64,000 nucleotides of DNA. Source: Tribonema minus (taxonomy: Eukaryota; Sar; Xanthophyceae; Tribonematales; Tribonemataceae). Positions 1 through 60,456 of this stretch are shown piece after piece. The notes below the pieces were generated by a model, which saw only the letters and a list, made by a program, of their open reading frames with translations, had not been told where the DNA came from and did not search any database. The position numbers and the translations under genes were made by a program. Numbering within the stretch: the stretch's first letter is position 1; the number at the start of each line of letters is the position of its first letter. The DNA is taken from contig JAFCMP010000434.1 in assembly GCA_017506865.1 (NCBI GenBank), positions 62,001-126,000 of the forward strand, read 5' to 3'.

Positions 1-713
1 AAGTGCGCAGTAGGGGCGTCACATGTTGCGGTACGAGTCTCGCCGCGCTCGAGCGTGCAGCCGCGAAGATCCACCTAGCAATGGCGGCGACGGAGCGTGC
101 AAGCGGGCGCAGCGGCTGTGCACGCGCGGTCAGCGATCGACACGGCCATTGCGCGACCACGCCACAGGGGCACAGGCATATGCAATAGAACGTGATGTTG
201 CCGATGCGGAGAGACTTGAGGCAAGCAGCGGCGAGTGCAGGTTCATGTGGCGGCGGCTACAGCGACAGCGTGCAGCACGGGTGTCACATGTTGAAGTACG
301 AAAGGCATGACCTCAGGGCATGGTCATGCGGATGGGGATGGGGCCCCCCCGTCCTCGCATGCGATGGGCTCGCTGCCCCTTGAAGGCACGCATGACAAAC
401 TTCAAGTTCAGCCGCGCACGGGCGGTGCAACCGCATTGCAACTGACCGCGGCGGCACAGCGCGCAGGCAGGCGCGATCAGCCGTCAGCGTCGGCGCCTGA
501 ACGACACGGCCGCTGCGCAGCCGGTCGTGTCACGTACGCCATAGAGAGAGCGGGCGTAGAATGTGCGCGGGGAGAGACGTGAGGTGGGCAGCAGCTTGCA
601 GCAGTTGACACAGGCCAACGACACTGGGCACGCAGCTGCCACAGAGCCCCAAGCAGGGTCGTCCATGCTTTGAGACATCTCCTGACCTCACTTAGCCACG
701 CATAAAAGCTTAC
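1..713. other. Intron or flank beyond the last visible kinase exon; no supported exon
   Basis: The last kinase exon I can place ends at 714 with a clear minus-strand donor (AAT|GTAAGC) in the middle of a PH domain, so at least one more exon must lie at lower coordinates or outside the window. I see no exon here that continues a PH fold. The reading frames present are short, overlap on both strands and resemble nothing known to me. Confidence 0.5.
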
Positions 714-3700
714 ATTTTCGATGTGGCCTCCGTCCTTGTAGGCAATGAGCTCGCCCCCCTTGAGCACGAACCAGCGCTTCTTCCAGTTCCTGAAGCCCAG
801 GCCCTGGTTCTTGACGTGCAGGTAGCCCATCTTGCTCGGGATGAAAGCCTGGCTGTTGTGCTGGCTGTCTGCGCGCGCGACAGCACCCGGAGGTTGGGGG
901 CCAAGAAGGGGGAAGGGGGGGGGGGGGGGTAGGTCAGCACGCTGCCGACTCCACAGGAGCTTTCTAGGGGGTGCAGAGCCCACGGCGGTGGACGCGCAAG
1001 TAGTTTTGGGCTCAGCAGTTGCGTTGGAAGCAGTGCAGATGTGCCGATTGCGCGGTGCGAGCGCTGCGTAAAGCGCGCAGTTGCACGGGAAGCGCATATG
1101 CTTAACCATAACCATGACCCTCACCCTCACCCTACACACAAACGCATGCAGGCAGCCTTTCCCTGGGCCTGGTTGCCAAGGAACTTCAGAGGTACTACCC
1201 TTCGACAGAGCTTCTCGCTCACCGTGCCCGAGGACTGGCGACAGGCCCTGCGCGCCCCTGTTGGCTTCAGGGCAGCAGCGGCTGCATCTCGGAGAGTTGA
1301 TAGGCTGGCGCTGACCCTAACCCTTCTCCTAACCCTCATATTTTAAAACCCTGTTACGCCAGGGCTGGCCCTAACTCAAACCCCCTTGACCCTCATCGTC
1401 ATCCTCATCTCAACCGTGCAAACAGCGCTCACCGTGCCCGAGGATTGGCGACAGGCCCTGCGCGCCCCTGTTGGACTGCGGCGGCAGCGGCGGCATCTCC
1501 GAGGGGTAGTCGGAGGCGTCGGTGGGGGTGGCGGCGGGGCGCTCCGGGGGGCGCGGCGCACGCCCTGACAGCGATGCCTGTGCCAGCGCCTGCTCGAGGG
1601 TCTCCTGCAAGGGGTAGGTAGGTATGGCATGTGTGAGGGGGGGGGGGGGGGGGGGAGGGGAGGGGGGGTGAGGGGGTATAGTCGCGTGCCCCGAGAGCGA
1701 CGCCTGCGCCAGCGCCTGCTCCAGGGTCTCCTGGTAAGGGTAGGCAGGTATGGCATGTGGGCGGGGGGGGGGGGGGGGGGGGGAGGGGGGTCAGGGGGTA
1801 TAGTCGCGCGACGCCTGCGCTAGCGCATGCTCCAGGGCCTCCTGGAAGGGGTGGGTAGGTATTGCATGTAAGGGGGGGGGGGGGGGGGGGGGTATGGTGT
1901 GGGTACGCTTCGTCTCGGGGTGTTCTGGAAGGGGTAGGTTTGGCATGTGTGTGGGAGGGAAAGGGGGGGGGGGGAGGGGGGGGATGGTGAGGGTAGGTTG
2001 GGTATGCTTCGTCTCAGGGTGTTCTGGAAGGGGTAGGTTTGGCATGTGTGTGGGGGGGGGGAGAGAGGGGGGGGGGTTGGTGAGAGCATAGATGGGGCAT
2101 GTGCAGAGGGTTTGGGGTATGCTAAAAAAAGTCTCGGGGTCTCGTGAGGGGGATAGCGCGTGGTCTTGGGTGGAGAGTGACTGTGAGAATGTATGGGCAT
2201 GTGTGGAGAGTTTTGTACGCTTTCGGGGTCCAGTGAGTGAGGAGTATGTGTGCACGGAGGGTGAGAGTGTGCGTGAGAGTGCTGTATACGCATACGGCAT
2301 GGAATGCACAAACGACGCGGTGCGGTTTCGCGGTCAAAATGGTGCGGTGCGGCGCTGTCACGGCGACCCTCGCCCTGACCACGAGTGCCAAACCTTGACC
2401 CTAGTGCGCATCTCAATCCAAAGGCACCTCGGATTGAAGCTGCTGCCATGCTCAATGTGCCCCACATAGGCGCAAACGACTCAGGCTGTGACTCCGACTC
2501 ACCTCCTCCTCAAGGCGTATCGCACTGTGTGCAGACGGCCGACTTGGACTCAAACGACTGACTCTGATTCATCTCCTCGTGACCCACCTCAAGTACATTT
2601 TCCGAGCGGGACACCGCCAGCAACGGCTTGTTCAATCTCCGACGGCCAAGACTCATCTGCAAATGACTCAGAATCTGACTCCTCTCCTCCTAATCGGCCT
2701 TGCGACGACTGCAGTGCATGCCAGCCTCCATAACTAAGACTCATTACATATGACTCAGACTGTGACTCACCTCCTCCTGATCGGCCTCGAGCATGCCCTC
2801 CACGACGGGCAGCGACGGCAGCGGCGCGGTGTCATCAGGAATTTCCGCCAGCAGGTCCTCCAGCCACGCGCGCGCGTCTTCGGCCGTCGGCCGCAGGTTT
2901 GCCTCGTACTCCAGGCTGCGGAGGGGCGCGGCGGAGGACCGTCACACGTGAAGATACATGCGCGCTGGGTTATGTATGCATCTAGGCTGCGGAGGGCACG
3001 GCGGCGGAGCGCCGCAAGTGAGGATGTATGCTCGGATACAAGCATGCGCGTTGGGTTATGTAGGTAAGGGTTGCCTCGTACTCCGCGCGCCGCAACGGAG
3101 CGTCCACGTGAGGACGCATACGCGTTGGGGTATGTAGGTAAGGTTCGCGTCGTACCCCAGGCCCCGAAGGGCGCCGCGGAGGAGCGTCACACGTGAGGAT
3201 ACATGACGGGGAGCTGAGCTACGCTGCACCGCGCGCGCATGCCAGTACCCTTGTACCATTAATACCAATACAGGCGCTGATGCAATGTGCAGATATCAAA
3301 CAAGCGCCGGCCATTCATCCCGATCCACGTGTGTGTGGCGGCCGTTCGCAAATTCGCATCAAACTTCAGGCGCAAGGCGGAGGGTGGGTTCTCTGCTTCT
3401 AAACACCCCCCGCGCGCCGCAATATCAAGTGTGACTCGCCACTGCAGCGTTTGCGTCACCAGACTGGGCGACGCGTCCGCAGGTACCTCTACTTCCACGT
3501 TTCAACACCTGAACTTCAAGTGTGACTCACCACCGCAGTGAGCGTCACCAGACGGGGGGGCGCGTCACTAGGAATCGGTTCTTCCACAGTTCAACACCAC
3601 ACCTTCAAGTGTGACTCACCACTGCAGCGTGAGCGTCACCAGACTGGGGGGCGCGTCCGCGGGTATTGCGGCGCGCACATCGGCCTCCTCCAGCGTGAAC

Positions 3701-6700
3701 AGATTCTTGGGGTGGCGCTGCGCAAAGCCGGGCTCGAGCTCCGCGCCCTCCCTGCGGTGGCACGCAGCGGACGGCAGTGCTCAGCAAATTAGCATCAGCA
3801 CTCGGCGGCTGCGGTTCAGCTCCGCGCCCTCCCCGCGATGGCGCGCAGCAGACAGCAGTGCTCAGTAAATCAACAGATCGTCAGGGCTCGAGCTCGCGCC
3901 CTCCCTGCGATGACGCGCAGCGGACAACAATGCTCAGCAGTTCATCAGATAGTCAGGGTTCTGGCTCTGCCTCCCTGTAATGGCGCGCAGCGGATAGCCG
4001 GAGTCAGCAGCTCAACGGATCTTCAGCGCTCGGCAGGCTACGCACAGCCGCGGTTCAGCTCCGTGCCGTCCCTGCGCGATGGCGCGCAGCAGACAGCGAT
4101 GCTCAGCGTCTTGCAGCGCGCACAAATTGCTGGTGGTCGTCCGCCAGTGTGGCGCTTCGTGGCGCAGCATAACAGTATTTGAAAGAGTGCGGGCGCTGAT
4201 TGCAACAGGTGCTCAGTTTTGGGCTGATTGCCACATGCTGCTGGTAGGCCTGCGCTCGCGCTTGCTGAAACACCTTCAACTAGCTGACACCTGCTGAAGT
4301 GCAAAGTTGAAGTACAGCCACGGATCTCGGCTGGCAGCGTGTCGCAAGGCCGCGCATGCAAACCGCAGACTACCAACATGGTGAGGGCGGCGAAATGCAC
4401 AACTTCAAAGTTGAAGTGCTGTGCTCACCTGTCCACCTTGCGCCCCTCGCCGATCTTGCGGCGCGTGATGAGCTCCAGCAGCACCATGCCGAACGAGTAC
4501 ATGTCGGCAGGGTGTGAAAAGTCCTCATCAAACAGCATCTCGGGAGCCATGTACTCGTCCTGTCGATTGAGCGGGGGTGGGGGTGGGGGGGGGGGGGGGG
4601 GAGTCCGTCGGTGGATGCTTTCAAATCGCACCACATGAGGAGAGAGAGCTGGAGTTGCTGCAATGGCTAGTGAGAGGAGAAGCACTGCACGTTGTGGCTA
4701 TGCAAGTGCAGCGGCGAATGGCGCCGCACGCGTAGGCGCAACAGCGAAGTTTGTCGAGCGCCGCGACTCGCACCACAAACCTTACTATAGACCTTACCCT
4801 ACGCGCCCTCGCGTACTTCGTGCTGTGCGCTGTATGAGAGAGGAGCTGCGTCGTGCAGCATGCCAGCAGGCGCAGCGTGTGCGCCTTTGTCAACGATGGG
4901 GCCACCGCTCAGCGGCCGCGACTTGCGCTCACCGTCCCGCAGATGGTCATCTTGCCGTCCTTGGCGACCTTGCGTGCCATGCCAACCTTCAACCTCAACT
5001 AATGACGCAGGCGATGCAGAGCAGCAGATTTCGTGCGCTATGCCAAACTTAAACTTAGACTTCAAGTAATGGCGCAAGGCAGCAGCAGCAGGGCTCACCG
5101 TGCCGCAGATGGTCATCTTGCCGTCCTTGGCGACCTCGCGCGCCATGCCGAAGTCGCTGAGCTTGCAGCGCCAGTCGGCATCGAGCAGGAAGTTGCTGGA
5201 CTTGATGTCGCGGTGGATGAGCTCCTGCGAGTGCAGGTACTCGAGGGCCTCGAGCCCCTCCTTGGCGACCCGTATGCGGAACTGCAAGGCAAAATCGAAG
5301 TGGAGGAGCGTGGGCGCGTGACGTGTGAGCGGTGTGAAGCTTGCGCAACGGACGGGAGTTATGGTTAGATTCAGGGTTAGGGCTAGGTTAGAATTGTCAG
5401 GCGCATGGATCCTGTAGCTTAGGGTTTACGAAGGGGGATCCTGCCCTGGGTTCTCAAAGAGCAGTCCCAACCCCCGCTTCCCAGAAGACATCATCCGGAC
5501 CCTATTCGTTGCTAAACATTGCTGCATAACCAACTGTTGTGTAGGTACTCCAGGGCCTCCTCGGCCACCCATATGAAGAACTGCGATTATGCACGTATGG
5601 TGGGATTTGGGTTTTGGCGCAAGTGGCAGCAGTCATGCGAGACAGGCGCCAAATACTCCCCCCGTGACCCCAACCCTGACCCTAACCCTAAAATATCACA
5701 TGACTCGACACACCTTTGTCGGTCCTCCGTGTGAAGATAAGCCCGAGTGAGCGGGTGCACACCGCGTTGCACGGTTGGTGCGCAGTTTATGCGACGAAGG
5801 GCCCGTCGGACGCGCGAAAGGCGCACATCGTTGCAAAGCGTGCGCGCGTGTGTGGCGCGAGGTGTGCGCGGTTGGCGCTGCGCAAATGGTGACGCCATGC
5901 CCCTCAGGCGCGTGAAAACACATTAATCATTGAAAAGCGTGCGCGCATGTCTCATGGGGGGGATCACCTTCAAGCCCAGCTCCTGGTACTTCCTCGGCAG
6001 CAGCTTGAGCAGACGCTCAACTGTTCTGCTGACAACTGCCAGAGACATCATTGTTGTGTGCTCGTACCTTCCAGCCCAGCTCCTGGTCCTTGCGCAGCAG
6101 CAGCTTGAGCAGGTCGCCCCCCGCGGCGTACTCCGTGATGATGTAGACGGCGTGCAGCTGCCCGCGCGACTTGGCAATGACGTTGTAGGCCCTGCGAATT
6201 TGCAACGGCCGTGCTTGAGCTCTTAACGTCGCTCAAAGTGCATTCAATCGACAGCAGGCTTCACGATTCCTTCGCAAATGAACTAATTGCCCTGCGCATA
6301 CAAGACGGCCGCGCGTGGAGGCGCCGCTTACAGTGCATTTAAAGCCAATCAACAGTGGGCTTCGTGATTAACTTTCAAAATGAATAGCGTGGTCTCCGGG
6401 CACGAAACGCAATCTCCTAAGCGCGCATGGTTGAGAGTGCAAGCTGCCAGTGTCATTCATCCTGCGCATTCGGGACGACCATGCGGGCTCGTTTGTTCAA
6501 AGTGCAGTGACAATCAGTGGCGGGGTGTGTGATTGCCCGTGGTCACGGGATCAGAAGCAACGGCCCTGACGAAGCAGGGCTCAGCACGAGGCTGGGTCTT
6601 TGGGGAGCACTGACGTGCCACCTAAGACAGGCTTCGCATCGTCTCCCTAGTTTACTTCTTTTTCTGTAGCAACACATGCCCCCGTGAGTCGGCTGCTTGG

Positions 6701-9700
6701 CTGTCCACCTCTGGCGCGGCGGTGGCGCTATGCGCTGTCAGGTTGTGGGCCTGGCGCGCTTCCTCTTCGATCTACACACACACGCAATCCTCGCCGACAG
6801 GGCAGGCGCGCATGGAGCCAGGGACAGCTGCTGCCAGAGAACGTGCATGATGGCCACCGCGGACGTAATTCCCATCGAAGGGCCCGAGGATGTAGTGCTG
6901 AAAATGAGCTCTCTGCAGAACGTGATAGGCCTGGGTGCAGCTGCGCCAGTCTTTGCGCAGCGCTCTGACGGGCGCGCGCGCCCGCATTCGCGCGCTGCTG
7001 CAGCAGCGAGATCAGCTGGTCGCGATTCAATCAAGCGCAGGGAGGCAGCTGCCGTTTGGGGTGTCTGTGCAAGTGGAATGCGGTGTCAAGCGTATCGCAA
7101 AGGAGAACGAGACGACCACCAAGACGTGCGCCAGGCGCCACCCTGGAAGGCGGCGACCCCCGTTGGGAGTGCGCCGTTGGATTTGAGGCCACTTTCACCG
7201 TTGTGGTGGTTCTCGTGTGTGTGAATGGATGAAGAACAAGAAGAGGTCACCATGGTGTGAGTGGTGGTTCTAGTGTCTGTAAATGGATTTTATTCTTTCA
7301 CGCGCGAGAACCACCATGGTGAGTGAACGCGGTCTCAAATTCATCGACGCACTCCCAGCAGAGGTCGCTGCCTTCCAGGCGGTGTGGCGCCTGGCGCGCT
7401 TCGCGGTGGTCACCCCCTTCCCCCCTGCGATGCGCTTCACAGCAGATCCCACTCGCTCAGACACCCCATTGGCAGCTTCATCCTTGCGCTTGATTGATCG
7501 CGACCAGCTGATCTCGCTGCTGGAGCAGCGCGCGAGTGCATGCGCACGTGCTGGCCAGGTCGCTGCGCGAAGTCTGGCGCAGCTGCATCAGGCCAATCAG
7601 GTTCCGGAGAGAGCCTGCTTGCAGCACTACATCCTGGAGCCCTTCGATGGGAATGGCGTCCGCAGTGGCCATCGTGCACGTTCTGCAGCAGCAGCTCTCC
7701 CTGGCTTTACGCGCGCCTGCCCTGGCGAGGGTTGTGTGTGTGTTCATCGAAGAGGAAGCGCGCCAGGCTCATAACCTGACAGCGCACAGCGCCTTGGCTG
7801 GTTGGTTGTCCACCTCTGGCACAGTGGCGGCGCTATGCGCTGTCAGACCCCTGTGAACACACCTCTGCGGGCGCGGACCAGGTTGTCAAAGACCTGTTGG
7901 CCGCCCACTCATCGGACCGGCGCAGCGGCGCACTTGTGACTTGCTGCTGTACGCTATGAGCCCTGCACGCTTGAGATGGCCAGAGGCCAAAGGAATACTG
8001 CAATGATGATTGTGCACGTGGTGGCTACTTCGCTGCCGAGAGCCTCGGTAGCCTGGCCGCGCGCACTGCGCGATGCGGCAGCGATGCATGTACAACAGAG
8101 CCGCCGCAAGCCTACATGACGAGCTACTCAGGCCTATGCCAGTCGAAATGAGAACAGCTTCCCAGGCCCTTGTGCCCTGCGCATCTACTCTCTGAAGCGC
8201 ATGCATAAACTTAAATACTTGAAGTTGATGAATGTCCACACTTGAAGGTTGTGATGTTCATCAGTTGAAGTTGATGACAGAATCAGCTTAACATTTAGTA
8301 TTTGTTCGGCGGTGCGCTCCTCACGTCCCGTCCGCGCACTCACCCGATGTACTCGAGCATGTTGGGGTGGCGGATGAACTTCAACACCTGAAGTTCGCGC
8401 AGCAGATACTTCTCCAGGTCCTTGCCCTTGCGCGTCTGCTTCTTCACCGCGACCGTGTCGCCAAAGTAGCGCCCCGCGTACACCGTGCTGAAGGCGCCCT
8501 CGCCGATGCTGGGGCCTAGCGTCACGCTGTCGGGGTTGACGTAGAAGTCGCTGTCCGCAAAGTCAGGCAGCTTGTTGCCTGCGCGGCATTTGAGAGGTGG
8601 CGGCGGTGCGTCACTTCAAGGCATACTTCAAGTGTGAGTGTATTCATGAACAACAACGTATTGGGTTGGCGTAGAAGTCGCTGTCCGCATAGTCCGGTTC
8701 GTTGCCTGCGCGGCGCCGTAGGGGGGGTGCCGATGCGTCACTTCAATGCATACTTCAAGTGTGAGGTACTCGTAAACAACAACGTATTGAGTTGACATAG
8801 AAGTCGCTGTCCGCAAAGTCCAGCAACTTATTGCCTGCGCAGCAGTCGTGCGGCACTGCGTCACTTCAAGGCATACTTCAACTATGAATTTGTTGACCAA
8901 ATGAAAAGTTGATCGTCGATCTGCCCACGTGCAGCTCGTTGCCTGCGGCGCAACGTAGCTGTTGCAAGTGGGGCATTGGGATTTGAAGATGTGCTTTAAG
9001 CGGCGGATCGCGAGCGCATTCAGTTCAGTGCCAACCTCAACTTCAAGTGCATGACAATTCCACAACGTTCGGCAGCGTGTTGCCCACGGTGCATGGTTGC
9101 ACAGTGACGCCGGCGCGTCACTTCAAGGCATGCTTCAACAAAATTGGCAATCAGTGACTCTAGTTGCCCAGTGCCAGGCAGATGGCATCACAGTCAGCTT
9201 GAGTCTCACAATAAATGTGGAATATATGGCGATGTTGCAAAGTTTGTTGCCTCCGGCGGACTGCGGCGCAGATGGCACCGTCGCAACTAGTTGAAGGCAC
9301 ACTTCAAGTACATGCGCACAGCATTGCCGTGAAGTGAAGCTGCTTGTAGCGCGCACGACAAGAGGTACACCGTTCTGGCGTGAAGCGGTTCAAGTAATAA
9401 TCGAAGGATAATTGGCACGCATCGGTTCCAGGTGTATGGGCAAATGGCTCCGTGAGAATGGAGCTGCTGGAAGCACATGATGAGATTTAGAGGTTCTGGC
9501 AGGAGGTTGAGGTACTTCAAGTAGCACTTGAAGTACCCAGGTGAGCGCCCCGCCGATGCTGTCCAGGCTCACATACAAGTCAACGTTCTCAAAGACCAGC
9601 TGCTCGCTGCCTGCCGCAGCAGAAAGACCGCCACTTCTGCCGCGGTTCGGAGGTGTCGTTGCCCCCAACGCTTTGACGATACCGCCTGCCGCCTGCCGGC

Positions 9701-26420: not shown

Positions 26421-29400
26421 ATGAAGATTCAGCTCGCCATCGTGCTGCTACTCCCGTTTATGGCGCTGGCCGGCGAGGCGCCCGAGGTTAGATGCTGTAC
26501 ATGTTCGCGCTATGACATGGATGAAAGTAGATATTGCATGCAGCATAAGAGGAGCAACGTATCAAACGCAGTAGAGCCTGGTGGCTTCCACTGCTTGAGT
26601 GCGCTGCACGAGCTGCCCATTGAATCGCCTGCAAATTGAATGCGCTCAAAAGCCATCGATCTGCAATTGTGCCGGTATCCAGTATCTTGTTGGCCCACGA
26701 AGCACAGCACCGGCACCAGCTGTAGCGACGCGCGTCTCGTGCTGTGTCAGGTGTGCTTGGTATTCATTCGCGCGGTGTCAAAACTCGGGCCCCCTCAAGT
26801 GCTACTTCAAGCTGCCGCTGTGTGATCCTGCGTGTAGTACAACTGCGCGGTGTGCTGCATATGACACTGCATTGTGTGGTATCGGCATCTCAGATTCTTA
26901 GATTCTCTCCTGGCTGATGCGACTCAGTGTCCACGCCGTACTGCGCCACGCTGATGGCATCCGATGATCATCAGCAGCTGCTGCTGCAGCAGCGGAATGC
27001 GGATCACACGTGAAAGCCGTGGCAATTTTAATGCGCCTCCGCTGCTGATCAGGCGAACATTCAGGACGGCGAGGTCGCTCCCCGCAAGCTTTGGGCCAGC
27101 GAGCCGACCCCTTGCCCCACCACCAAGAAGCCTACTCAAAAGCCCACGACTCGCAAGCCCACTAGCAAGCCCACAACGAAGAAGGTGAGTCACAGCTTCA
27201 CTGCCCTAACACTGAACCATTGGTCCACCTCTTGCGTAATAATATATCATTGGATGTGCAGCTGCTTAGCTGCTAATGCAGTCAACTTGAAACATCCTAC
27301 GATTTGAGCAACTAGTTCTCTTTTGAGGCAATGCTATCAGATGATATCTGTAGAGCACGTGACAACTTGAACTCTAACTTAGCAAGTCTAAGTGGAAGTT
27401 GACAGCCTGCCAGCTGAGCGCTGCTGCAGACTTTAAGTCGCAAGGCTCTTGATGAATCGTAGTCTTTCACTGGCAGTCAGTGCCGCGATTGGGGGGGCAC
27501 CACTGCCCCTCAGAGGCTCCTCTGTTCTCCGCAGCCGGCATGAGGGCCCATCGGCCACGTGAGTGCAGTTGCAAGGCCATCGCACCCCCGAAAAGGGCGG
27601 CGCGAATGAGCGCTAATATCCCAGGCCGTCAATCCTGTTAGTGCTGGCACCTTGCCCTATATAATTCTCATTGATCCTTTCCCTACCCTCAACCTTACCC
27701 TGTGCTGCACAGCCAACCTCAAAGCCCACTTACGCGCCGACGACACGCAAGCCCACCAGCAAGCCCACAACTCACAAGGTACTGGTGTTTCTTGTTGCAC
27801 GATCATGATGGGCGAAAAACCCTGTGTATGATATGGAGCATGCAGAGTAACATCATGTGCAGTAGGCAACCACTGGCTGTCAAATCGACACGTGCTGGCT
27901 TTTGTACGCATCGTCACAATCGTGGCTTGAACCCTGACGATGCATGATGGGCTACAGTTGCTGTAGTTGCAAAAAGACGGGTGCGCACGTCACACACGCA
28001 TTAAATCTCATGCAATGACGTCCAGTGCCACTTTCAAATGAGCATGAATACAATATTAAAATAATACAAGACATACTCTTGAAGTATTTTAATGACTGCA
28101 GTAGCAAGCTTGGCATCGTCACACGGTTAATCTGGCATTTTTGCCCTCTAAGCAAAAAAAGCAATGTACTGGACTGGGCAGCTGCAGGACATTCACAACC
28201 TTTACAGTGAGATTGAAGGGACCATGTTCTACTCTCCGCAGCCAACTTCAAAACCCATCACCCACGCCAATGAAGGAACAGCGCGGCCGCAGCAAGGCCG
28301 GTGCCCTGAAAGCCCCTGGGACATGAAGCACAGCGCAGACTTGTGATAAGTGCTTGATGCTATCGGCGCTGTCCCTTACCCCAGTACTTGACTCACTTCA
28401 GCTTGAGGGACGGATCATCATTGGATGTGCAGTGCATTCAACTTGAAACACCTTGCATGTTTATTCTTTTGAGCAACTAGTTCTCTTTGAGGCAATGCCA
28501 TCATATGACATCTGTCACAGTAGAGCCAGTGACAACTTTTGAACTCTGAGTACAACTTCAAGTTGACAGGTGAGCGCTGTTGCAAGCTTCAAGTACTTTG
28601 CAAGGCTCTAAGACTTGATACCCTCGTAGGCACTCACTGGCATCCAGCGAGCTTAGGGGGAATCACCGCCCCTGAGGCTGCTCCGTTCTCCGCACTGGCA
28701 GCCGGCATGAGAGCCCATGGGCACTCAGGCTGACCACGGGAGTGCAGTTGCAGGGCCATCGTACCCTCCATACGGGGGGCGCAAATGAGCGCTCCTATCC
28801 CAGGCCCTCAATCCTACTGGCGCTGGCACCTTGCCCTATGATATTCTCATTGATCCCTCCCCTATTCTCAACCTTACCCTGTGCTGCACAGCCGACCTCA
28901 AAGCCCACTTACGCGTCGACGACGCGCAAGCCCACCAGCAAGCCCACGACTTACAAGGTACTAACTTTGTTTAAACTCATGACTGTTGTTGCTTGAAAGG
29001 CAAAAAACCCTGTATGATAAAGTATTCATATAGTATGTACAGTGCAGTATCCACTGGCTGCTGAATCGCCATGTGCCGGCTCTTGTATGCGTCATCACAC
29101 TTTATTGTGACTCGAACCCTGACAGTGCATGGTGGGCTGCAGTTGCTTACAAGAGGAGATAGGTGCGCGCGTCACAAATGCATTCATGCAATGTGGTCCA
29201 GTGCTGATGTCAATGAGCATTGAGACACTTTGGTGCACGGCGTACTCCTGAAGTGTTTTAGGGACTGCGGTAGCAAGCTTGGTGTTTATCTGGCCTTTTT
29301 GGCGCTCCAAGCGAGAATCAGCATACTATACACACATTTGCAGGGACCATTGTCTATTCTCCGCAGCCAACTTCAAAACCGATCACCCACGTCAATGAAG

Positions 29401-32010
29401 GAAGACCCTGGTGCAGCAACCTGAAGGCCGGTGCTGCGAAAGCGCCCCCCTCCAAAAATGGGGGACATGATGCAGAGCGCAGACTTTTGATAATGCTCGA
29501 TCCTACTAGTATAAGCGCTGTCCCCTCCCCCTAGTCAATTATTCACTTCTGCTGCTTGAGGGGCGGAAACCCTGGTCTGCATCACACCGTATGCAACACG
29601 TACTTCTATGGTGCTGTTGAGCCTGTTTATGCTCTCTCTGCCAGGAGCATGCACACTCACTGACCACTGTCTCAAGGTTGTCTGCGAAAGGGTCTCCGTA
29701 GTGCACGCTGCTGACCGTGCTAACCCTGACCCTCCCTTGTGTGCTCTGCAGCCGACCTCAAAGCCGACGACGCGCAAGCCTACCACGCGCAAGCCCACCA
29801 CTCGCAAGCCGACCACCCGCAAGGTACGCCATAACAACAATTGATGTAATACCTCTGCAGCGCTGCTCAGGGCGTGTGCGCCTTTGTGATGGCCGCCGGA
29901 GGCACTGCAGTGCTAGCAGCTGCTGCTTGCCGCATACTTCTATGCGTCCATCGCCGTGATGTGCTCTGCCACGCATTGCCGGCGGCGCGAGAGCTTTGCA
30001 CTTTAGGCATCTGTATGTATGTATGCTTTCAACCTTGCACACTTCAAGTACGTGCATCTACTAAGGCTTGCAACATACATGGTGATGATGCCACGCATAC
30101 GACATTCCGACCATCGCTGGCAGCCAGAAAGTCAGGGCGACAGAGAGTGCCGCCTGGACATGTTGAGTACGGTGCAGCACGCTTCATGTCGCGCAATGTG
30201 GTGCCGCCCGCGACCTTTGTGTGCGGCGCAGCTCTGTGAGGAATTGAGAACTGTAAGTTTCTGCTTATATTAGGCGGCTCTGCTCGCCTAGCATGCGACC
30301 GCAGCCACCATGCATCGTGCTGGGCCGTTCACAAGACTTGATGTTGCTGGCAGTGCATGCCGCGGGCAAGTGGGCCGTTTGGCTGCGAAGCACGCGCGTG
30401 ACCACACCCGTACAGTGCTAATTGAAGCAGCTTCTAGCCAAGACGCCACTGACCCCCCATTGATGCGCTGCGTGTGCGCCTCTCGTTTCTTCCTACCTGG
30501 TGCCGCAGCCCACCGCCAACCCCACCACCGCCACCTGCACGAATGGAGTGGTGAGTGAGCGCTGTGTTGAAGTTCACCAGTGTCGTCAAATCGCGTGTTC
30601 TGCTTAGGTGCCTGCCTTGTCACCGAGCTTGCATCACTGGTTCATCTGCGCGCTGGGTCGCGGATTGCGGGGCCCTCTGCAGTCCGCGCCACCTGCTGAG
30701 CATGATGACTGTATCCCGCCACATTCGCGTTTTCTTGGCGCACTGTGCGCGCGCGCGCCAATGCCGGTGTTGATGGCTGACAGACTCATCAGGCTGGAAC
30801 AACGCCAGACTTTTTACTTTAAAGTTGAAGCAGAGCACACTTCTACACATCCCAACACAGGTATGCTCAGAAACAAACTGTCTGCAAGATTGCATGCCCC
30901 CGCCAATCCCCCCCCCAGACACCTAAATATTGTAATCACACCGGTCAGTCGGTCACTGCCCATTTGTGTAGTGCGCTCATAGGGTGCGCATGGCACCCAC
31001 GTCACACGCGCACCAGTGCCTTCCTTTGCTTGCAGCACACCTGCTGTCAGAACTGCTGTGTCCAGTTGCTGATGGAACAGCGCGTCATGTCAAATTTGGT
31101 CCTTGGGTGAGCACCTGATGTGCGGCCCCATACAGGTCGTGCAAAGTGTCACTGGTATGCGTCTCGTCCAGTCAAAGTTCAATCTGCCCCAAATTGTGTC
31201 TGCCTGCGCGTTTGCTCCGCCCCCCCCCCCCCCCCCCCTTCGGCACGGCGGCGGCGCTACGTGCTGCCAGCAGCATTCATGTGCACCACGTTGCGTGCGC
31301 CGCTAGTAAGGGGGGGAAAGTCAGCCCAATGCTCGCGTGCTTGCACCCCCTTGTCTGCCGCTTTGCTGCCATCTGTGAACCCTGCTGCTCAAGCACAATT
31401 GTTGAAGTTGAAGTAGAACTTACATGCCCCTGGGCTCGTTCGCATTGCACATCCACCCGGCGCCACCACAAACTCGAACGTGGCGAAACTGTACTCTCCG
31501 TGCGCTGCCGCCGCTGCGGTGAAGCGCGCTTTCACAACTGCTCCCGACGCGACGCCCCTCACACGCGTCTTTCTCGCTCTCGCTCCTGCCGCTGCCGCGC
31601 AGTCGTGCAAGGTCACCGTCGGCACCAGCGAGTACTCGGGCCTCTGCTACATCCCCGGCCAGGAGCCGGCGGACGGCAACCTCCTGCGCGCAGGCAACGG
31701 TGACTGCCCTCAGACCGCCTACTGCGCACAGGCGTGCTACATCAGCAACACGAGCGACGGCCTGTGCGCTTCCAGCGAGTGCAGCGGCGGCAACCGCTGC
31801 CGCTGCTACAAGAAGGTCGCGGGGCAGACGGGCGCCGACTGCAAGGCGGACGAGCTCGTGGGCGTCGCCCCCGGCGCCGTCATCGACACGGGCGGCGGCT
31901 GCAGCGAGAACAACTGCAACGCGCTGACTGATTCGTCGTCCGCCGCGGCGTGCTGCCCCACGAGTGACACGTCGTGCGCTGCGCTCGCGCTCGAGGACCT
32001 GCTGGACTAG
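26421..32010 (+). CDS. Secreted PT-repeat protein with C-terminal 15-Cys domain, short paralogue
   Basis: Seven plus-strand phase-0 exons: 26421-26486, 27053-27184, 27713-27778, 28892-28957, 29752-29823, 30509-30550, 31603-32010, giving about 283 residues. Exon 1 is a signal peptide (MKIQLAIVLLLPFMALAG). Exon 2 repeats the paralogue's module (ANIQDGEV, RKLWASEPTPCP) and continues into PT-rich sequence. Exons 3-5 encode PTSKPTYA and PTTRK repeats, so the spacer is short and strongly basic rather than alternating Lys/Glu. The last exon is the Cys-rich domain: Cys at exon residues 2, 15, 35, 41, 45, 55, 60, 66, 68, 80, 100, 105, 117, 118, 125, with SGLCY, YISNTSDGLC, CRCYKKVAG, GGGCSENNCNA and AAACCPT shared with the long paralogue. 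The first donor (GAG|GTTAGA) is weak. Two decayed PT exons at 28242 and 29367 have acceptors but no good donors and are left out. Tandem gene duplication with later divergence of the spacer is the simplest history. Confidence 0.82.
27220..29495 (+). repeat. Tandem duplication of about 1.1-1.2 kb inside the short PT-repeat gene
   Basis: Unit 1 (about 27220-28345) and unit 2 (about 28395-29495) align along their length. Both hold GAGCAACTAGTTCTCTTT, AGCCGGCATGAG, GGCGCTGGCACC or close forms, a PTSKPTYA exon (27713 and 28892) and a decayed second exon. The decayed exons at 28242 and 29367 share a CTCCGCAG acceptor, CCAACTTCAAAACC and an AATGAAGGA stretch. Exons 3 and 4 of the gene are therefore recent duplicates. 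Confidence 0.8.
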
Positions 32011-35494: not shown

Positions 35495-35757
35495 CTACGT
35501 GTGGACTGCACCTACCTGCATCCACAGCGCCGCCGCGATGAGTTCCACCACCTGGACCGGCGCGTGGTCCGACAGCATGTGCGCGTGCACCCAGCCCTTA
35601 CCACACGCATGCGCTTGTGAACTATAAGGGTTAGGGCGAAGACCTAGCACTAGCATGAGGGTTAGTATGAAGACTAGGTCCAGGCTGCACCTACCTGCGT
35701 CCACAGTGCCGCAGTGATGAGCTCCAGTGCCTCCACCGGCACGGGGTCCGACCCAAC
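35495..35757 (-). repeat. Two extra copies of the NOL6 D5-exon 3' edge and donor (left copy)
   Basis: Copies at about 35505-35600 and 35685-35757 repeat the minus-strand end of the D5 exon (coding WVHAHMLSDHVPVEAVELI) with its ACGCAG|GTAGGTGCAG donor, beside the real exon end at 35819. The right gene copy has about seven such units at the same position. Confidence 0.8.
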
Positions 35758-36483
35758 CCTACCCCTACCGTAACCCTAGTCCTGAACAACTAGGGTTGAA
35801 GTTCGGCTGCGCGCCTACCTGCGTCCACAACGCCGCCGTGATGAGCTCCACCGCCTCCACCGGCACGTGGTCCGACAGCATGTGCGCGTGCACCCAGCGC
35901 TGCGCGGCGCGCGCCGTGGGTCCGAACGCGCGGTGCCGCGCGTGGAAACCCGCGACGAGGGCATGGTGCAGTGGCGCCGTCACGAGGTCACGCTCCAGGG
36001 CGTCAACTGACGCTGCCGCGTCAGTGTCCTGCACGAGAGAGAATCGACGGAAGGGGGGGGCAGGGGGGGGGGGGGTCAAGGGTGTCATCTGAGGTCGGTT
36101 TGTGGGTTGAGAGTTGAAGTTGCGGTGGCGCGCGTGGAACCCCGCCACGAGGGTGTGGTGCAGCGGTGCCGTCATGAGGTCGCGCTCGAGGGCATCCACC
36201 GCCGCCGCTGCGTCAGTGTCCTGGCGCAAGAAACGGGGGGGGCGGTGCCCATGGGCTTGGGGTAGGCATGTACTTCAAAAAGTATGTCGGTTTTTAGGGT
36301 TGGGTTAGGGGATTTGAGCGTCCGTTGAGCCCTGCGGCGGCGGCGCGGGCGCGCAGGCGTGCTTGTCGCCAGCGCAATCTTGCGCGCGACGGGGTGAGCA
36401 CGCAGCCATTGGGCGCTGCAAAGCTGTCTGAGGCAGCGTTAGCAACACGACGAAATGGTACAAACAGCTTCATCAACTCAGCA

Positions 36484-55147: not shown

Positions 55148-58100
55148 AGGGGCGCAGCGCCGCGGCGGTACGGATGCGCGCTGCGAAGCCCGCGGCCTCG
55201 CCGGGCGCGAGCGCGAACAGCGCGTCGATGCCGCCGTCGCCGCTGCCGCCGCCGCCTGTCCGCAGCCAGCGCAGCATGGCGTCCGCGGACGCCGCGGCGA
55301 GCGCGCGGAGGCGGCCGAGGACGGGCGCCTCGGGGTCGGCGCGCGTCCAAGTGGGTGTCCAGCCTGACAGCGCGTGCGCGTGTGTGCGTGAGTGGCGGGG
55401 CGTGGGAGTGTGTGTGTGCGTGAGAGTGTGGCTTACGAGCGGTTTTCTTGATGGGGTGCAGATGGTGTAAAGTGGAGAGCAGCAGAGTGTGGGCGGGGTG
55501 TGCGGGATGGCTGCCTGGGATTGCAGTGAAATGTGTGTTCCAGGAACTCCGGCTGCGCCGCCGCGCGCCGCCGCTGCTGCCTGGCGAAGCGCAAGTTCAA
55601 CACGTGCCTGGGAGGGTGTGTGCGTGAGAGTGCAATGCGCGAGTCGTCTCTGCGCGCTGCGAGAAGGATGGAGCGCGGACAGCGGCGGCGGTGTGCGGAC
55701 GCGCACGTGATGGCTGCCTGGGTTTAGGGTCAGGGATTAGGGTTAGGGGCACTGCAGCAACGCATATCTCTGAACATGCTTGTCACGCGCAACCGAGCAC
55801 CATTAACGCCGCCTGGCAAGTGCAAGTGCGACAGGACTCGTGTCAGGTCGGGAAGGGGAGGGCGGGGATGCCTCTGGGCGCTTGCAAACCGCCTGCCTGC
55901 TGCCCAACGATCAGCTGCAATGAGTCACGTGGCACAGGGCAGCACTGCCCGGCGGTATTACGAGAGCACGCCCACAATGCGTATGCCACGGGCACGCGGC
56001 GCCACGATGCTTCTATGTCTCTGTTGTGCTCTGCATCCACACCAATGACAATTGGAGTTGTCGGGCAGTCACTGCATTTTCCCCTGCGATACTGTGGTCT
56101 TACCACGAGCATTGTTCATCGAGTACTGGCGGTCATTGTTTTGTCACCAGCAAAAAAAGTTCGCATGAATATGCACATGTTGCAGCGCCGCAGCCGCTGC
56201 CGTTGTTGTTGGCCGCTGGAGAAGCGGTGCTGCCGCAACAGGCGCCGCCGTGTTACCGCCGCAGCAGCTGATGCGGGGACCACGCTGTTTGGCGCTTTGT
56301 GTCGGGGTTGAGGGGTAGAGGGGCGTCGTCGTGACCGCGGCTGACACGGTAGGCGCACCTGATGATAATGCTTACCAAAAATAATGACTGGTAGGGCCAG
56401 GGCAGCGGAGGACTAGGTAAACGTATATGACGCTGCGCGCGCAAACCTGCCGCCCTGTCGTACGGCGCCACAATAAACATGGCGCACGGCAGCGCCGCCG
56501 CGCCGCCGCCGCCCGGAGCGCTCACGCCGCCGCGCGCGCGCGCGCGCGTCGCACGCCTCCGCTGCCGCTGCGTGATCCGCAGGTGAGAGCTCGCCGTGAA
56601 AGTCTACGACGAGCGGCGCCGCGGCCCAGTCGTGGCGCGCCAGCAGCAGCAGGAAGCGCAGGAGGCCGGACAGCGCGGTCGACGGCGGCGGCAGCGGCGA
56701 GGCCTGTGTAGCGCAGCGCAGTGCGGCGGCGGTCAGCGCGGCTCGGCAGTGTGTGTCTGTCTGTCTGCGTGCTGAATGCATTGTGGCTGAGTGCATGCGG
56801 TCCTCCATGTAGGTATGGCGGAGGCAGTGGGCTAGGGTTAGCGCTGGGGTTAGGTCGAGGCCTGCGCGCGGCGGCGCGGCAGCAGCGGTCAGCGCGGCTC
56901 AGCAGTGCGTGTGTGTGATGAGTGCATTCTGGCTGAGTGTGCGCGCGGGTGAATGCGTTGCTGGGAGGGCTGTGGGGGGTGCGAGTGGGTTGAGGGGTGG
57001 TGCGGGCTGGTCGTGGAAGTGCGGTGGAGGCAGCGACGTTGCCTGCGCGCTGTTTCGCATGCTGGGATGCTCCTTTAGGTGAATGATTACGGTCCGTGTC
57101 TTGACCTCCACCTCGACCGCAACATGGCCCGACTGAACCCTAACCCTGACCCCACACTCCATGCTTACCCTTGAAGTTTGGGTGCGATGAGCTCTGCGGC
57201 CTCGACCGGCGCGTGGTCCGACTCTACCCTAACCTTACCCCTCAACAACTAGGGTTGAAGTTTGGCTGCACCTACCTGCGTCTAAAACGCGGCCGCGATG
57301 CCCTCCACCGCCTTGACCGGCACATGGTCCGACAGCATGTGCACGCGCACCCAGCCCTAACTACATGCGCGCGCTTATGAACTACGAGGGTCAGGGCGAA
57401 GAACAATAATTAGCACTAGAGTTGGGATGACAGCCAGGTCCAGGCTGCGCCTACCTGCGTCCAGAGCGACGCTGCGACGAGCTCCACCGGCCTCGACCGA
57501 CAGGTGGTCCGACCCTACCTACCTTGCCCCTGCCCTAAGTCTAGCCCTGAACAACTAGGGTTGAACTTTGGCTGCACCTACCTGCCGTCCACAACGCCGC
57601 CGCGATGAGCTCCACCGCCTCCACCGGCACGTGGTCCGACAGCATGTGCGCGTGCACCCAGCCCGACCTACACGCATGCACTTCCGAACTGCTAAAATTA
57701 GGGTCGAAAGCTAACGTTAGGATGTGATTCAGGGTTGCGACTAGGGTTGAGGTTAGGCTGCACCTGCGTCCAGAGCGCCGCCGCAATGAGCTCCATCGCC
57801 TCCACCGGCACGTGGTCCGACAGCATGTGCGCGTGCACCCAGCCTTAACTACACGCGTGCATTTCTGGACTACTAGGCTGAGAAGTGGAAGCTAGCATAA
57901 GCAGAGGATCGAGGGTTACGCCTAAGGCTAGGTCTAGGCTGCACCTACCTGCGTCCATAACGCCGCCGCGATGAGTTCCACTGGCCTCGACCGACACAGC
58001 GTCTGATCTAACCCTAACCCCGAATCCAGCACTGTACTTCTGAACAACCACTTTTCTTGTGGGTAGCGTTGGCGCTGGGGTTAGATTGCACCAGCGTACA

Positions 58101-60456
58101 GAGCGCCGCCCGATATAAGTTCTACCCTACCCTAACCCTGCCTGAACCCTAACCCTGCACAACTAGGGTTGAAGTTTGGCTGCACCTACCTGCGTCCACA
58201 GCGCCGCCGCGATGAGCTCCACCGCCTCCACCAGCACGTGGTCCGACAGCATGTGCGCGTGCACCCAGCGCTGCGCGGCGCGCGCCGTGGGTCCGAACGC
58301 GCGGTGCCGCGCGTGGAAACCCGCGACGAGGGCGTGGTGCAGCGGCGCCGTCACGAGGTCGCGCTCTAGTGCGTCTACTGCCGCCGCCGCGTCAGTGTCC
58401 TGTGCGAGAGAAGGGGGGGCAGGGGGGACAAGGGGGGGGGTCAGGGGTATCATTTGGTCGGTTGGGCGAGTTGAAGTTGGCGAGGTCATGCTCGAGGGCG
58501 TTGGGGTTTAGGGTTAGCGTCCTGCGCGACAGAGTCGAGGGAGGGTTGGGGGGGGGGGGGCGATCAGAGGTTCCATGTGGTGGCAGGGCGCATCGAGCGC
58601 TGCGCAGACACGATCAAGGTAGCACGTACGTCGGTGTTAAAGTGTTGTGCGTGAAGAAATAAGTCGTGTGGTGCAGCGGCGCCGTCATGAGGTCACGCTC
58701 CAGGGCATCCACCGCCGCCCCCGCGTCTGCGTCCTGTGCGAGAGAGTATCAACGGTAAGAGGAAGGGGAGGGGGGGGGCGTCAAGCGTGTCTTGGAGGTC
58801 AGTTGTGGGTTGAAGTTAAAGTCGGCGAGGTCGCGCTCGCCGGCGTTAGGGTTAGGGTCAGCCCTGCACAATGGATTCAAGGCAGCGGGGGGGCTCGATC
58901 AGATTTGATGTGGCGACGGGGGCGCGTCGAGCGTAAATGTCCTTCACAGCGGTCAGACCGTCGGTCCCAACAGCAGTCTCCCCCTGGTACCTCCAACCTC
59001 GCAGCTCTGCCAAGCACCAGCTCAAACGTTACGCAATGCACAGTGGTCACAGAGAGCCTCAGCCTACCCCTTTACCCCCTTCTACCCCCTCACACATGCA
59101 TACATACGTACCCCCTTGGCAGCTGCCTCCTTCAGCGCGATCGCCTCCACGTCGTTCCTCACGCGCAGCCGGAAGCAGTACCCCCCCGTGAAAACGTCCA
59201 GCGCCACCCCCTCGCACCCCCCGTCCCCCTCCCCCTCCCCCTCCCCCTCCCCCCGCGCCCCCCCCTGGGGCGTCACCACCCGCGACGGAACTTCGTGTTG
59301 CGCCTCCAGGCACTGCGACACGCGCAGCAGAAATGCGGCGATGGTGTGCTGCACCGCGCCCGCCTCCTTCGGCCACTTGGAGCTGCGCTCGAAGCGCACG
59401 ACCAGCGGCAGCACCGGGACCTGGGAGGGGGGGGGGGGGGGGTCGCACAGAGGAGGAAGGGGTACCATGCATCAGCAGCATGAAGCGCTTGCTTTCGTTG
59501 CCCATTGCTGGCGGGGTAGCGCAAATGGTCGGCCGAGCGTGCACTCGTGACTCGCAAGTCAAGACTCACAGACGGCTCAGGGCCAAGTCTCCGGCGCAGC
59601 GCTGGTAGCAGCACGCCTCCATTCAGCAGCGGGGCGGAAGAACACTTCGGTGTAATGAAGCGCTTTGCTGCAGGTGGTGGAGATTTTGTGTTGTAAAATG
59701 ATGCTGCAGCAAAAACAACCCTTGCCCTGAGCGACCAATCCCCGCAGTGGTACATGCCTGTGCTGCCTGTACTGCGATACACGGTGGAAGTGGGGGAGAC
59801 GGCGCATAACTTCAACCCTAATTCTTTGATGCATCCGGACGGCGCTGGCGTGGCGCTCCACAGCTGTGTTGCAGGTGCAGCGCGCGGCGGCAGCGCAGCG
59901 ATCACGCCTCGCAGCACCACATGACAGGCGATACGAATTAAGCAAACGCAAGCAGGCAGAAGTGGACGGCGATGCAGTGCGGCGCCGACGCCGCTGTCAT
60001 CGCGCATGGCAGAGCCTCGCTGCTCTTCCAAATGCGGGCGGCAATGGCGGCGGCGGCGGCGCAGCGCCGGGCGCAAGCGCGAGCGCACAAACATCAGCCA
60101 AGCTGAGCCTGCAGCCGACAGGTGCAGCGAGCGAGGCCCCACCTGACTCGTGACGCGCTTGATGCCGCCGCCACCGCCGCCGCCGCGCCGCCCGCGCGCG
60201 CTGCCGCCCCACAGCGGCACCTCCTCGCCCGCGCCCGCGGCGAGCGCGTGCGGCAGCGGCGGCAGCGCCGCCGTGAAGCGCAGCGCCGGCGCGGCGGCGG
60301 CGACGGCGTCCACGCGCAGCGGCAGGCCCTCGAGCGCGCGCAGCTTCGCGGCGAGGGCGTCGTACGCGGCGACGGCGAGCCGCGTCAGCGCGTCGTCGGG
60401 GTCCGCCGCCGCCGCCGCCGGCAGCGCCGCGCCGACGGACGCGAGCGTCACTGCGC

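Follow-up and report, generated by a model that had tools for sequence, protein, structure and literature searches.

Copies of exon edges together with their splice sites lie in the introns of a kinase gene and of many other genes from Tribonema minus, a probable footprint of intron growth by tandem duplication

The title of a study on human by Zhuo from 2007 reportedly links tandem arrays to introns. Tandem or local duplication also figures in several of the described systems which come closest to the case reported here. In the AGGT tandem-duplication model (reviewed in PMC3443670), an exonic segment is duplicated, which supplies splice sites within the gene, and the stretch between two AGGT sites becomes an intron. 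In a potato RdRp gene, the segment that was duplicated extends across an intron-exon boundary and takes splice signals with it. Fission yeast has tandem-repeat introns with a similarity that reaches into the neighbouring exons (PMC3629103), regional tandem duplication has been tied to introns in Drosophila (PMC2891723), and introners have remodelled introns on a genome scale (PMC9860276). Here, we analyze a stretch of 64,000 nucleotides from Tribonema minus (contig C434:62001-126000, referred to as the window), which carries eight exons of a kinase gene. Most introns of this gene contain copies of the edges of their own flanking exons, splice sites included, and such copies were also found in many other genes. 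We regard them as the probable trace of serial tandem duplications across splice junctions by which introns grew, a process that would have acted on old and possibly also on young introns.

The kinase gene is encoded on the minus strand, with eight exons in the window (E1 to E8) and three more farther left on the contig; all of its introns are GT-AG introns, and the exons join into one uninterrupted frame. The protein, joined by hand from the window exons, matches the domains Pkinase (E 2.1e-47) and PH (E 1.2e-6), and a piece joined from the exons farther left matches the SAM domain weakly (E 0.0013, which is under Pfam's cut-off). For each exon edge, 50 exonic bases, with intron bases excluded, were used as query in Smith-Waterman alignments against the intron adjoining that edge, 11 other introns, the reverse strand, and 100 dinucleotide shuffles. 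An alignment of exon edges with their own and with other introns had been proposed in an earlier note on this DNA as a check on its claims, and it came out as expected there: for 17 of the 22 kinase edges the own intron ranks 1 of 12, with z from 5.8 to 34 against the shuffles. Five edges fail: in intron E1/E2 both, in E3/E4 and E7/E8 the one at the acceptor, and in E4/E5 the one at the donor.

The earlier note had attributed edge copies to every intron of the gene. This is correct for seven of the eight introns in the window (upstream/E1, E2/3, E3/4, E4/5, E5/6, E6/7, and E7/8; z at least 5.8, rank 1 of 12), where for the intron upstream of E1 the acceptor edge is the only one known and 1100 bases were used as target. 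It does not hold for intron E1/E2 (6192-8343), in which edge copies were not detected on either side (z 2.0 and 0.3). This intron carries two copies of its own last 60-90 bases or so, including the acceptor and at most one exon base. The next three kinase introns, at and to the left of the window end, pass the test, as does the donor of E11. Arrays derived from both flanking exons had been described for introns 2916-3619 and 1605-2770 and are present in both; copies from both sides were additionally found in intron E2/E3 (5282-6067).

According to the alignments, the duplicated unit consists of exon edge, splice site, and intron sequence, arranged head to tail; four donor copies end near the splice site. 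Head-to-tail units that run from the exon into the intron are found at the acceptors of E1, E5, and E7 and at the donors of E5, E6, and E9. The nearest copies in the kinase gene are 70-209 bp away, and the divergence between copy (those scoring at least 38 were kept) and exon edge is 0-21% where the two align. When direct-repeat families were collected over 12.4 kb of the kinase gene, 15 of 17 contained an exon edge, compared to 6.84 ± 1.94 under random shifts (maximum 14 in 2000); intron E1/E2 has an inverted-repeat element, and the remaining two families are located inside it or at its ends.

As these alignments show, short tandem duplications that have their two ends on opposite sides of a splice junction copy the exon edge together with its splice site. 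Under exon definition, the acceptor of an exon pairs with the nearest donor. Splicing would stay with the splice site attached to the exon body, as the frame works that way, and the extra copy would become part of the intron. The buried copy would then drift under almost no constraint, and arrays could be built, and the intron lengthened, by additional rounds, in some of which several units are duplicated at once.

The process which produces edge copies affects many genes of this genome, and the feature, which the earlier note had described for the kinase gene, is not special to it: of 72 modelled introns from 15 genes, 45 are positive in the same kind of test. The assembly has 158,181,000 bases in 554 contigs. 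A first set of seven genes comprises the kinase gene, its paralogues C3 and C44 (taken from the kinase search), the genes for proteasome alpha-2 (10-20 kb to the left of the window) and UPF0029 (on a contig that was sampled blindly), and two Nrap genes. Here, an intron was counted if z exceeded 5 and its score was above that of every intron of other genes. By this rule, 19 of 27 introns pass, with positives in C44, proteasome alpha-2, UPF0029, and both Nrap genes, and 27 of 54 edges score at least 28 in their own intron versus 12 of 1404 mismatched pairs. Repeats had been seen at the proteasome and UPF0029 loci before these genes were modelled, so that their 5 of 6 passing introns are no blind sample. 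A chaperonin set, meant to lessen such choice, was obtained by a single family search with about ten loci, nine of which were fetched and eight modelled; repeated profile hits were visible before fetching in three of the ten, one of which (C51) was not fetched. In these genes 26 of 45 introns pass (16 of 32 in a batch of six genes, with an own-edge count of 19 spread over 15 introns, and 10 of 13 in two more), including all introns of CCT_L025 (5/5) and CPN_L028 (6/6). The 72 introns exclude those flanking unmodelled exons in L021, L023, L024, and L026, all introns of L027 (an incomplete model), the likewise fetched Prp8 loci L019 and L020, and the stretches upstream of E1 and after E11, for each of which a single edge is known.

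Copy-bearing introns are longer than the others (Mann-Whitney p 4.6e-5). In five length bins from below 300 to above 1200 bp, the pass share is 0/4, 1/9, 18/28, 18/22, and 8/9. Exon-anchored repeats occupy 0 to 65% of the intron bases in 13 genes. Splice dinucleotides are found in register in most copies (GT in 33 and GC in 4 of 41 donor copies, AG in 25 of 26 acceptor copies). Separately, the proteasome alpha-2 gene has a tandem repeat that begins a few bases before the coding end (L005 5949-6164); since it starts inside the coding end, the boundary between coding region and 3' UTR may be affected, too.

Paralogue pairs allow us to compare introns at the same positions. L024 and L028, two Cpn60 paralogues with 78% identity, have four usable intron positions in common, all with the same phase (a fifth was dropped as the L024 model has no exon there). 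At these positions, the introns of L024 have 479, 772, 302, and 524 bp with 0, 0, 80, and 116 bp of repeats, and significant copies in none of the four. Those of L028 have 897, 1131, 865, and 823 bp with 190, 772, 808, and 748 bp of repeats, and all four pass; the third has the highest repeat fill encountered (93%, 808 of 865 bases). One L028 array repeats the last 102 exon bases four more times, with 92-96% identity and a spacing of 161-166 bp. As significant copies and greater length occur at common positions in one paralogue only, the visible copies record the growth of existing introns.

A second pair is formed by the Nrap (nucleolar protein 6) paralogues, located at 33.3-39.9 kb and 54.5-62.3 kb of the window and about 84% identical over 3.4 kb. 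Intron A (521 bp) has two copies, and intron B (1486 bp) has six, one of them partial. Bases 9-334 of A align best to bases 615-945 of B, thus to its inner part, which indicates that the counterpart of A's donor is a copy that has become buried in B. In both the Nrap and the Cpn60 genes, array copy number differs between related loci and the units are arranged head to tail, as in intronic minisatellites or variable tandem arrays.

The earlier note had left open whether introns arise or grow by junction-spanning tandem duplication. Growth is supported by the paralogue pairs; birth in the sense of the AGGT model is not, and we regard it as very unlikely to account for the repeats. The model (PMC3443670) predicts exon-to-exon homology across the intron, namely a similarity of the intron 5' end to the start of the downstream exon and of the intron 3' end to the end of the upstream exon. 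This hallmark was found in none of the 72 introns: in 59 of them, no score reached 20 (means of 10.05 and 10.64 for own and of 10.22 and 10.52 for other introns), and the 13 introns added later scored at most 16. Furthermore, AG|GT is not found at any of the 10 exon-exon joints of the kinase gene, four of which read AG|G, and the Cpn60 introns at common positions have significant copies in one paralogue only.

Several observations nevertheless weigh against pure growth by serial tandem duplication, and one of these is what speaks for birth by the AGGT mechanism: among the introns of the kinase family, copies are present in all six that are paralogue-specific but in only one of the seven that are shared (Fisher p 0.0047). 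Kinase introns with copies that are absent from both close paralogues are E2/3, E3/4, and E5/6, and probably also the intron before E1; intron E8/9 is absent from paralogue C3. This age comparison was sorted by hand, with E8/E9 compared to C3 only and the intron before E1 resting on open frames, and it omits E4/E5 (where the paralogue intron is nine residues away) as well as E6/E7, E7/E8, and E10/E11 (not aligned). Some kinase introns may thus be young, but the visible copies do not tell how these introns were born. The skew could reflect a role of the same process in making or favouring young introns, or just the activity of this gene. As the Cpn60 pair shows, with copies in common introns of L028, shared introns also acquire copies.

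A more far-reaching proposal is that introns of this lineage owe their length mainly to junction-spanning tandem duplication, which would also be a source of intron birth. Exon edges would then be permanent seeds because selection protects one copy, and an intron would be born when the extra exon piece is kept or when a new pair of splice sites comes into use within an array. We consider this conceivable but doubtful.

Among the other points that count against growth by serial duplication is the number of introns without copies: 27 of 72 fail, including all four in each of C3, CCT_L023, and CPN_L024. In unguided predictions (66 introns, kept out of the count of 72), only 11 of 124 non-kinase edges have z above 6, where many of the models are antisense or doubtful. 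Identity within arrays drops only weakly with distance (rho -0.28, p 0.07). Also, the donor copies of E2, E3, E7, and E10 lose clear homology about 2-9 bases beyond the splice site, with an exon part that is 89-95% identical, which is not what plain tandem duplication predicts.

Such copies, which stop shortly beyond the donor, would fit an alternative in which splice junctions are hot spots for duplication, for example through R-loops or through repair templated by nascent RNA, with exon edges seeding the copies. The 15 of 17 kinase families that contain an exon edge also fit, and this number is still unusual (P 0.0016) when it is considered that exon-anchored pairs remain detectable for longer, by a factor which we estimate ourselves as 1.56; such a pair diverges more slowly because one of its sides is constrained. 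In a set of 13 genes, an exon edge is part of 45 of the 61 families, versus 29.7 ± 3.64 expected (maximum 41 in 400). Without the kinase gene the count is 32 of 46 versus 23.4 ± 3.14 (maximum 31) if detectability is not factored in, but with the factor of 1.56 the expectation rises to 28.4 and the excess is lost (P 0.17). A smaller junction test without the kinase gene fell short of significance (13 of 19 families versus 10.1 ± 2.05 at random). Attraction to junctions is hence clear in the kinase gene only, and elsewhere the longer detectability of exon-anchored pairs could be the cause. All in all, the hot-spot explanation seems rather unlikely to us.

From their sequence, we read the copies as probably unused leftovers. 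In 81 copies with 1319 aligned codons, synonymous changes number 171 and other changes 219, and a stop occurs once. By codon position, the divergence amounts to.077/.066/.153, close to what is expected when the copy is free and the exon next to it constrained. The offsets of the first 43 copies are independent of the frame (16, 18, and 9 in classes 0, 1, and 2 mod 3), and gaps are a multiple of three in only 2 of 12 cases. Yet synonymous changes are in excess (171 versus the 129 ± 9 expected for a free copy if 18% of the changes fall on the exon), and, with the same share assumed, stops are scarce (1 versus 5.7 ± 2.6, P 0.02). A CpG control leaves neither fully explained; if 30-35% of the changes fell on the exon, the synonymous count would fit and stops would still be low (P 0.05-0.065). 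These deviations, together with the mostly retained splice dinucleotides, are what speaks for copies being kept by selection as decoy or alternative splice sites or exons. However, the offsets are not multiples of three, 10 of 12 indels break the frame, and the dinucleotides are retained about as often as the divergence would give by our own estimate. No complete exon copy with both splice sites was found among the kinase families, where the largest overlap is 84 of 172 bases. Maintenance by selection therefore strikes us as quite improbable.

That the repeats are an assembly or haplotype artefact can practically be dismissed: the copies are diverged, differ in every gene, and are spread over many contigs, and the E1 region matches a single place in the genome. 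The divergence of 0-21% and this single match argue against an artefact. An origin from introners was considered and rejected, as 28 cross-gene matches among 59 introns are all at most 56 bp long and define no common family.

Table 1. Features of the kinase region and of the Nrap genes (positions in the window; for rows with an empty cell, the evidence is given in the text).
Feature	Positions	Strand	Evidence
Acceptor-edge array of E9, window part; E9 itself is left of the window	1..301	-	edge test, repeat families
Decayed copy of E8 end, limits approximate	335..390	-	edge test (z 9.4), alignment
Exon E8, PH domain start	714..868	-	gene model, PH match
Donor-edge copy of E7, offset 209 bp, 71 exonic bases	1216..1503	-	edge test, alignment, repeat families
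Exon E7	1433..1604	-	gene model
Acceptor-edge array of E7, offsets 95-415 bp	1521..2101	-	edge test, repeat families
Donor-edge copy of E6, offset 87 bp	2648..2787	-	edge test, repeat families
Exon E6	2771..2915	-	gene model
Acceptor-edge array of E6, offsets 85-245 bp	2895..3205	-	edge test, repeat families
Donor-edge array of E5, offsets 91, 180 bp	3425..3665	-	edge test, alignment, repeat families
Exon E5	3620..3751	-	gene model
Acceptor-edge array of E5, offsets 70-322 bp	3717..4107	-	edge test, repeat families
Exon E4	4429..4559	-	gene model
Copy of E3 end and donor, 95%	4927..4983	-	edge test, alignment, repeat families
Exon E3	5099..5281	-	gene model
Copy of E3 start and acceptor CAG	5539..5584	-	edge test, alignment
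Copy of E2 end and donor, 89%	5966..6012	-	edge test, alignment, repeat families
Exon E2	6068..6191	-	gene model
Intron E1/E2, without exon-edge copies; copies of its own 3' end at 6292-6384 and 6461-6515; inverted-repeat element	6192..8343	-	
Exon E1, kinase N-lobe	8344..8578	-	gene model, Pkinase match
Acceptor-edge array of E1, in the intron upstream of E1, offsets 123-507 bp	8533..9139	-	edge test, alignment, repeat families
Nrap paralogue A: exon end and two donor-edge copies in the next intron	35516..35819	-	
Nrap paralogue B: exon end and six donor-edge copies (one partial), same intron	57165..58190	-	

Some further observations concern the kinase genes. Intron E1/E2 is positioned within a few bases of an intron in both paralogues, and the offsets of this first intron, which amount to a few bases among the three paralogues (L017 1582, 2365; L016 gene strand 1185; window 8344), look like intron sliding. 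The inverted-repeat (fold-back) element of intron E1/E2 is large and imperfect (6724-7793), with segments of 34-139 nt that are 78-92% complementary and one more of 21 nt. The E3 donor copy (aligned to 5099-5149) starts within a base of the position of a C3 intron that is absent from the kinase gene, and C44 has an intron a few bases upstream of that position. A GC-AG intron occurs in C44 (L017 2617).

Elsewhere in the window there is a tandem duplication of about 1.15 kb with 70% identity (27277-29567), and long coding repeats of 12 and 24 bases, of the type PTAEPTSEPT, are found at 17.1-20.3 kb. In the whole window plus the sampled loci, AACTTCAA occurs at about 32 times, ACTTCAAC at 19 times, and AACCCTAA at about 17 times the frequency expected from base composition. 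The density of ACTTCAA/TTGAAGT in the seven modelled genes is about twice as high in introns as in exons (37 in 24 kb versus 4 in 5.8 kb). Light-harvesting proteins yielded 92 exon matches, and one such protein is most similar to LHCI chains of 9vfj, followed by 7y5e (from a red alga) and by proteins with the cryptophyte names ACP or CAC. A search with psbA had no match above the cut-off, and the best hits of the proteasome and Cpn60 proteins do not single out a lineage. By these matches the DNA comes from a photosynthetic alga, perhaps one with a plastid of the red line.

The lengthening of introns is seldom legible once the causing events have decayed. Here, its steps can be read in housekeeping genes such as those for the proteasome and chaperonins, and paralogue pairs which share intron positions and differ in array load provide a comparison of before and after. 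Rate, unit size, and the tolerance of splicing toward intron lengthening thereby become measurable, and it can be tested directly if intron growth and intron birth have a common mutational source. Among the titles and abstract openings listed in a search of the open-access literature, with subscription papers mostly outside its reach, there was no description of genome-wide exon-edge arrays.

Several of the described systems differ from that of Tribonema minus. The fission yeast case concerns two introns with 24-nt units (PMC3629103), whereas junction-spanning units of about 70-200 bp are found here in most of the long introns tested. In Drosophila, gain occurred at proto-splice sites and was inferred for seven introns, and the authors noted that the footprint of duplication might have been lost (PMC2891723). 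Introners are copied between genes (PMC9860276), and the 59 introns compared here have no such family. The nearest described case is the potato RdRp gene, in which a junction-crossing duplication created one new intron in a single event. In Tribonema minus, there have been many events in many genes, and the extra exon piece ends up within the intron.

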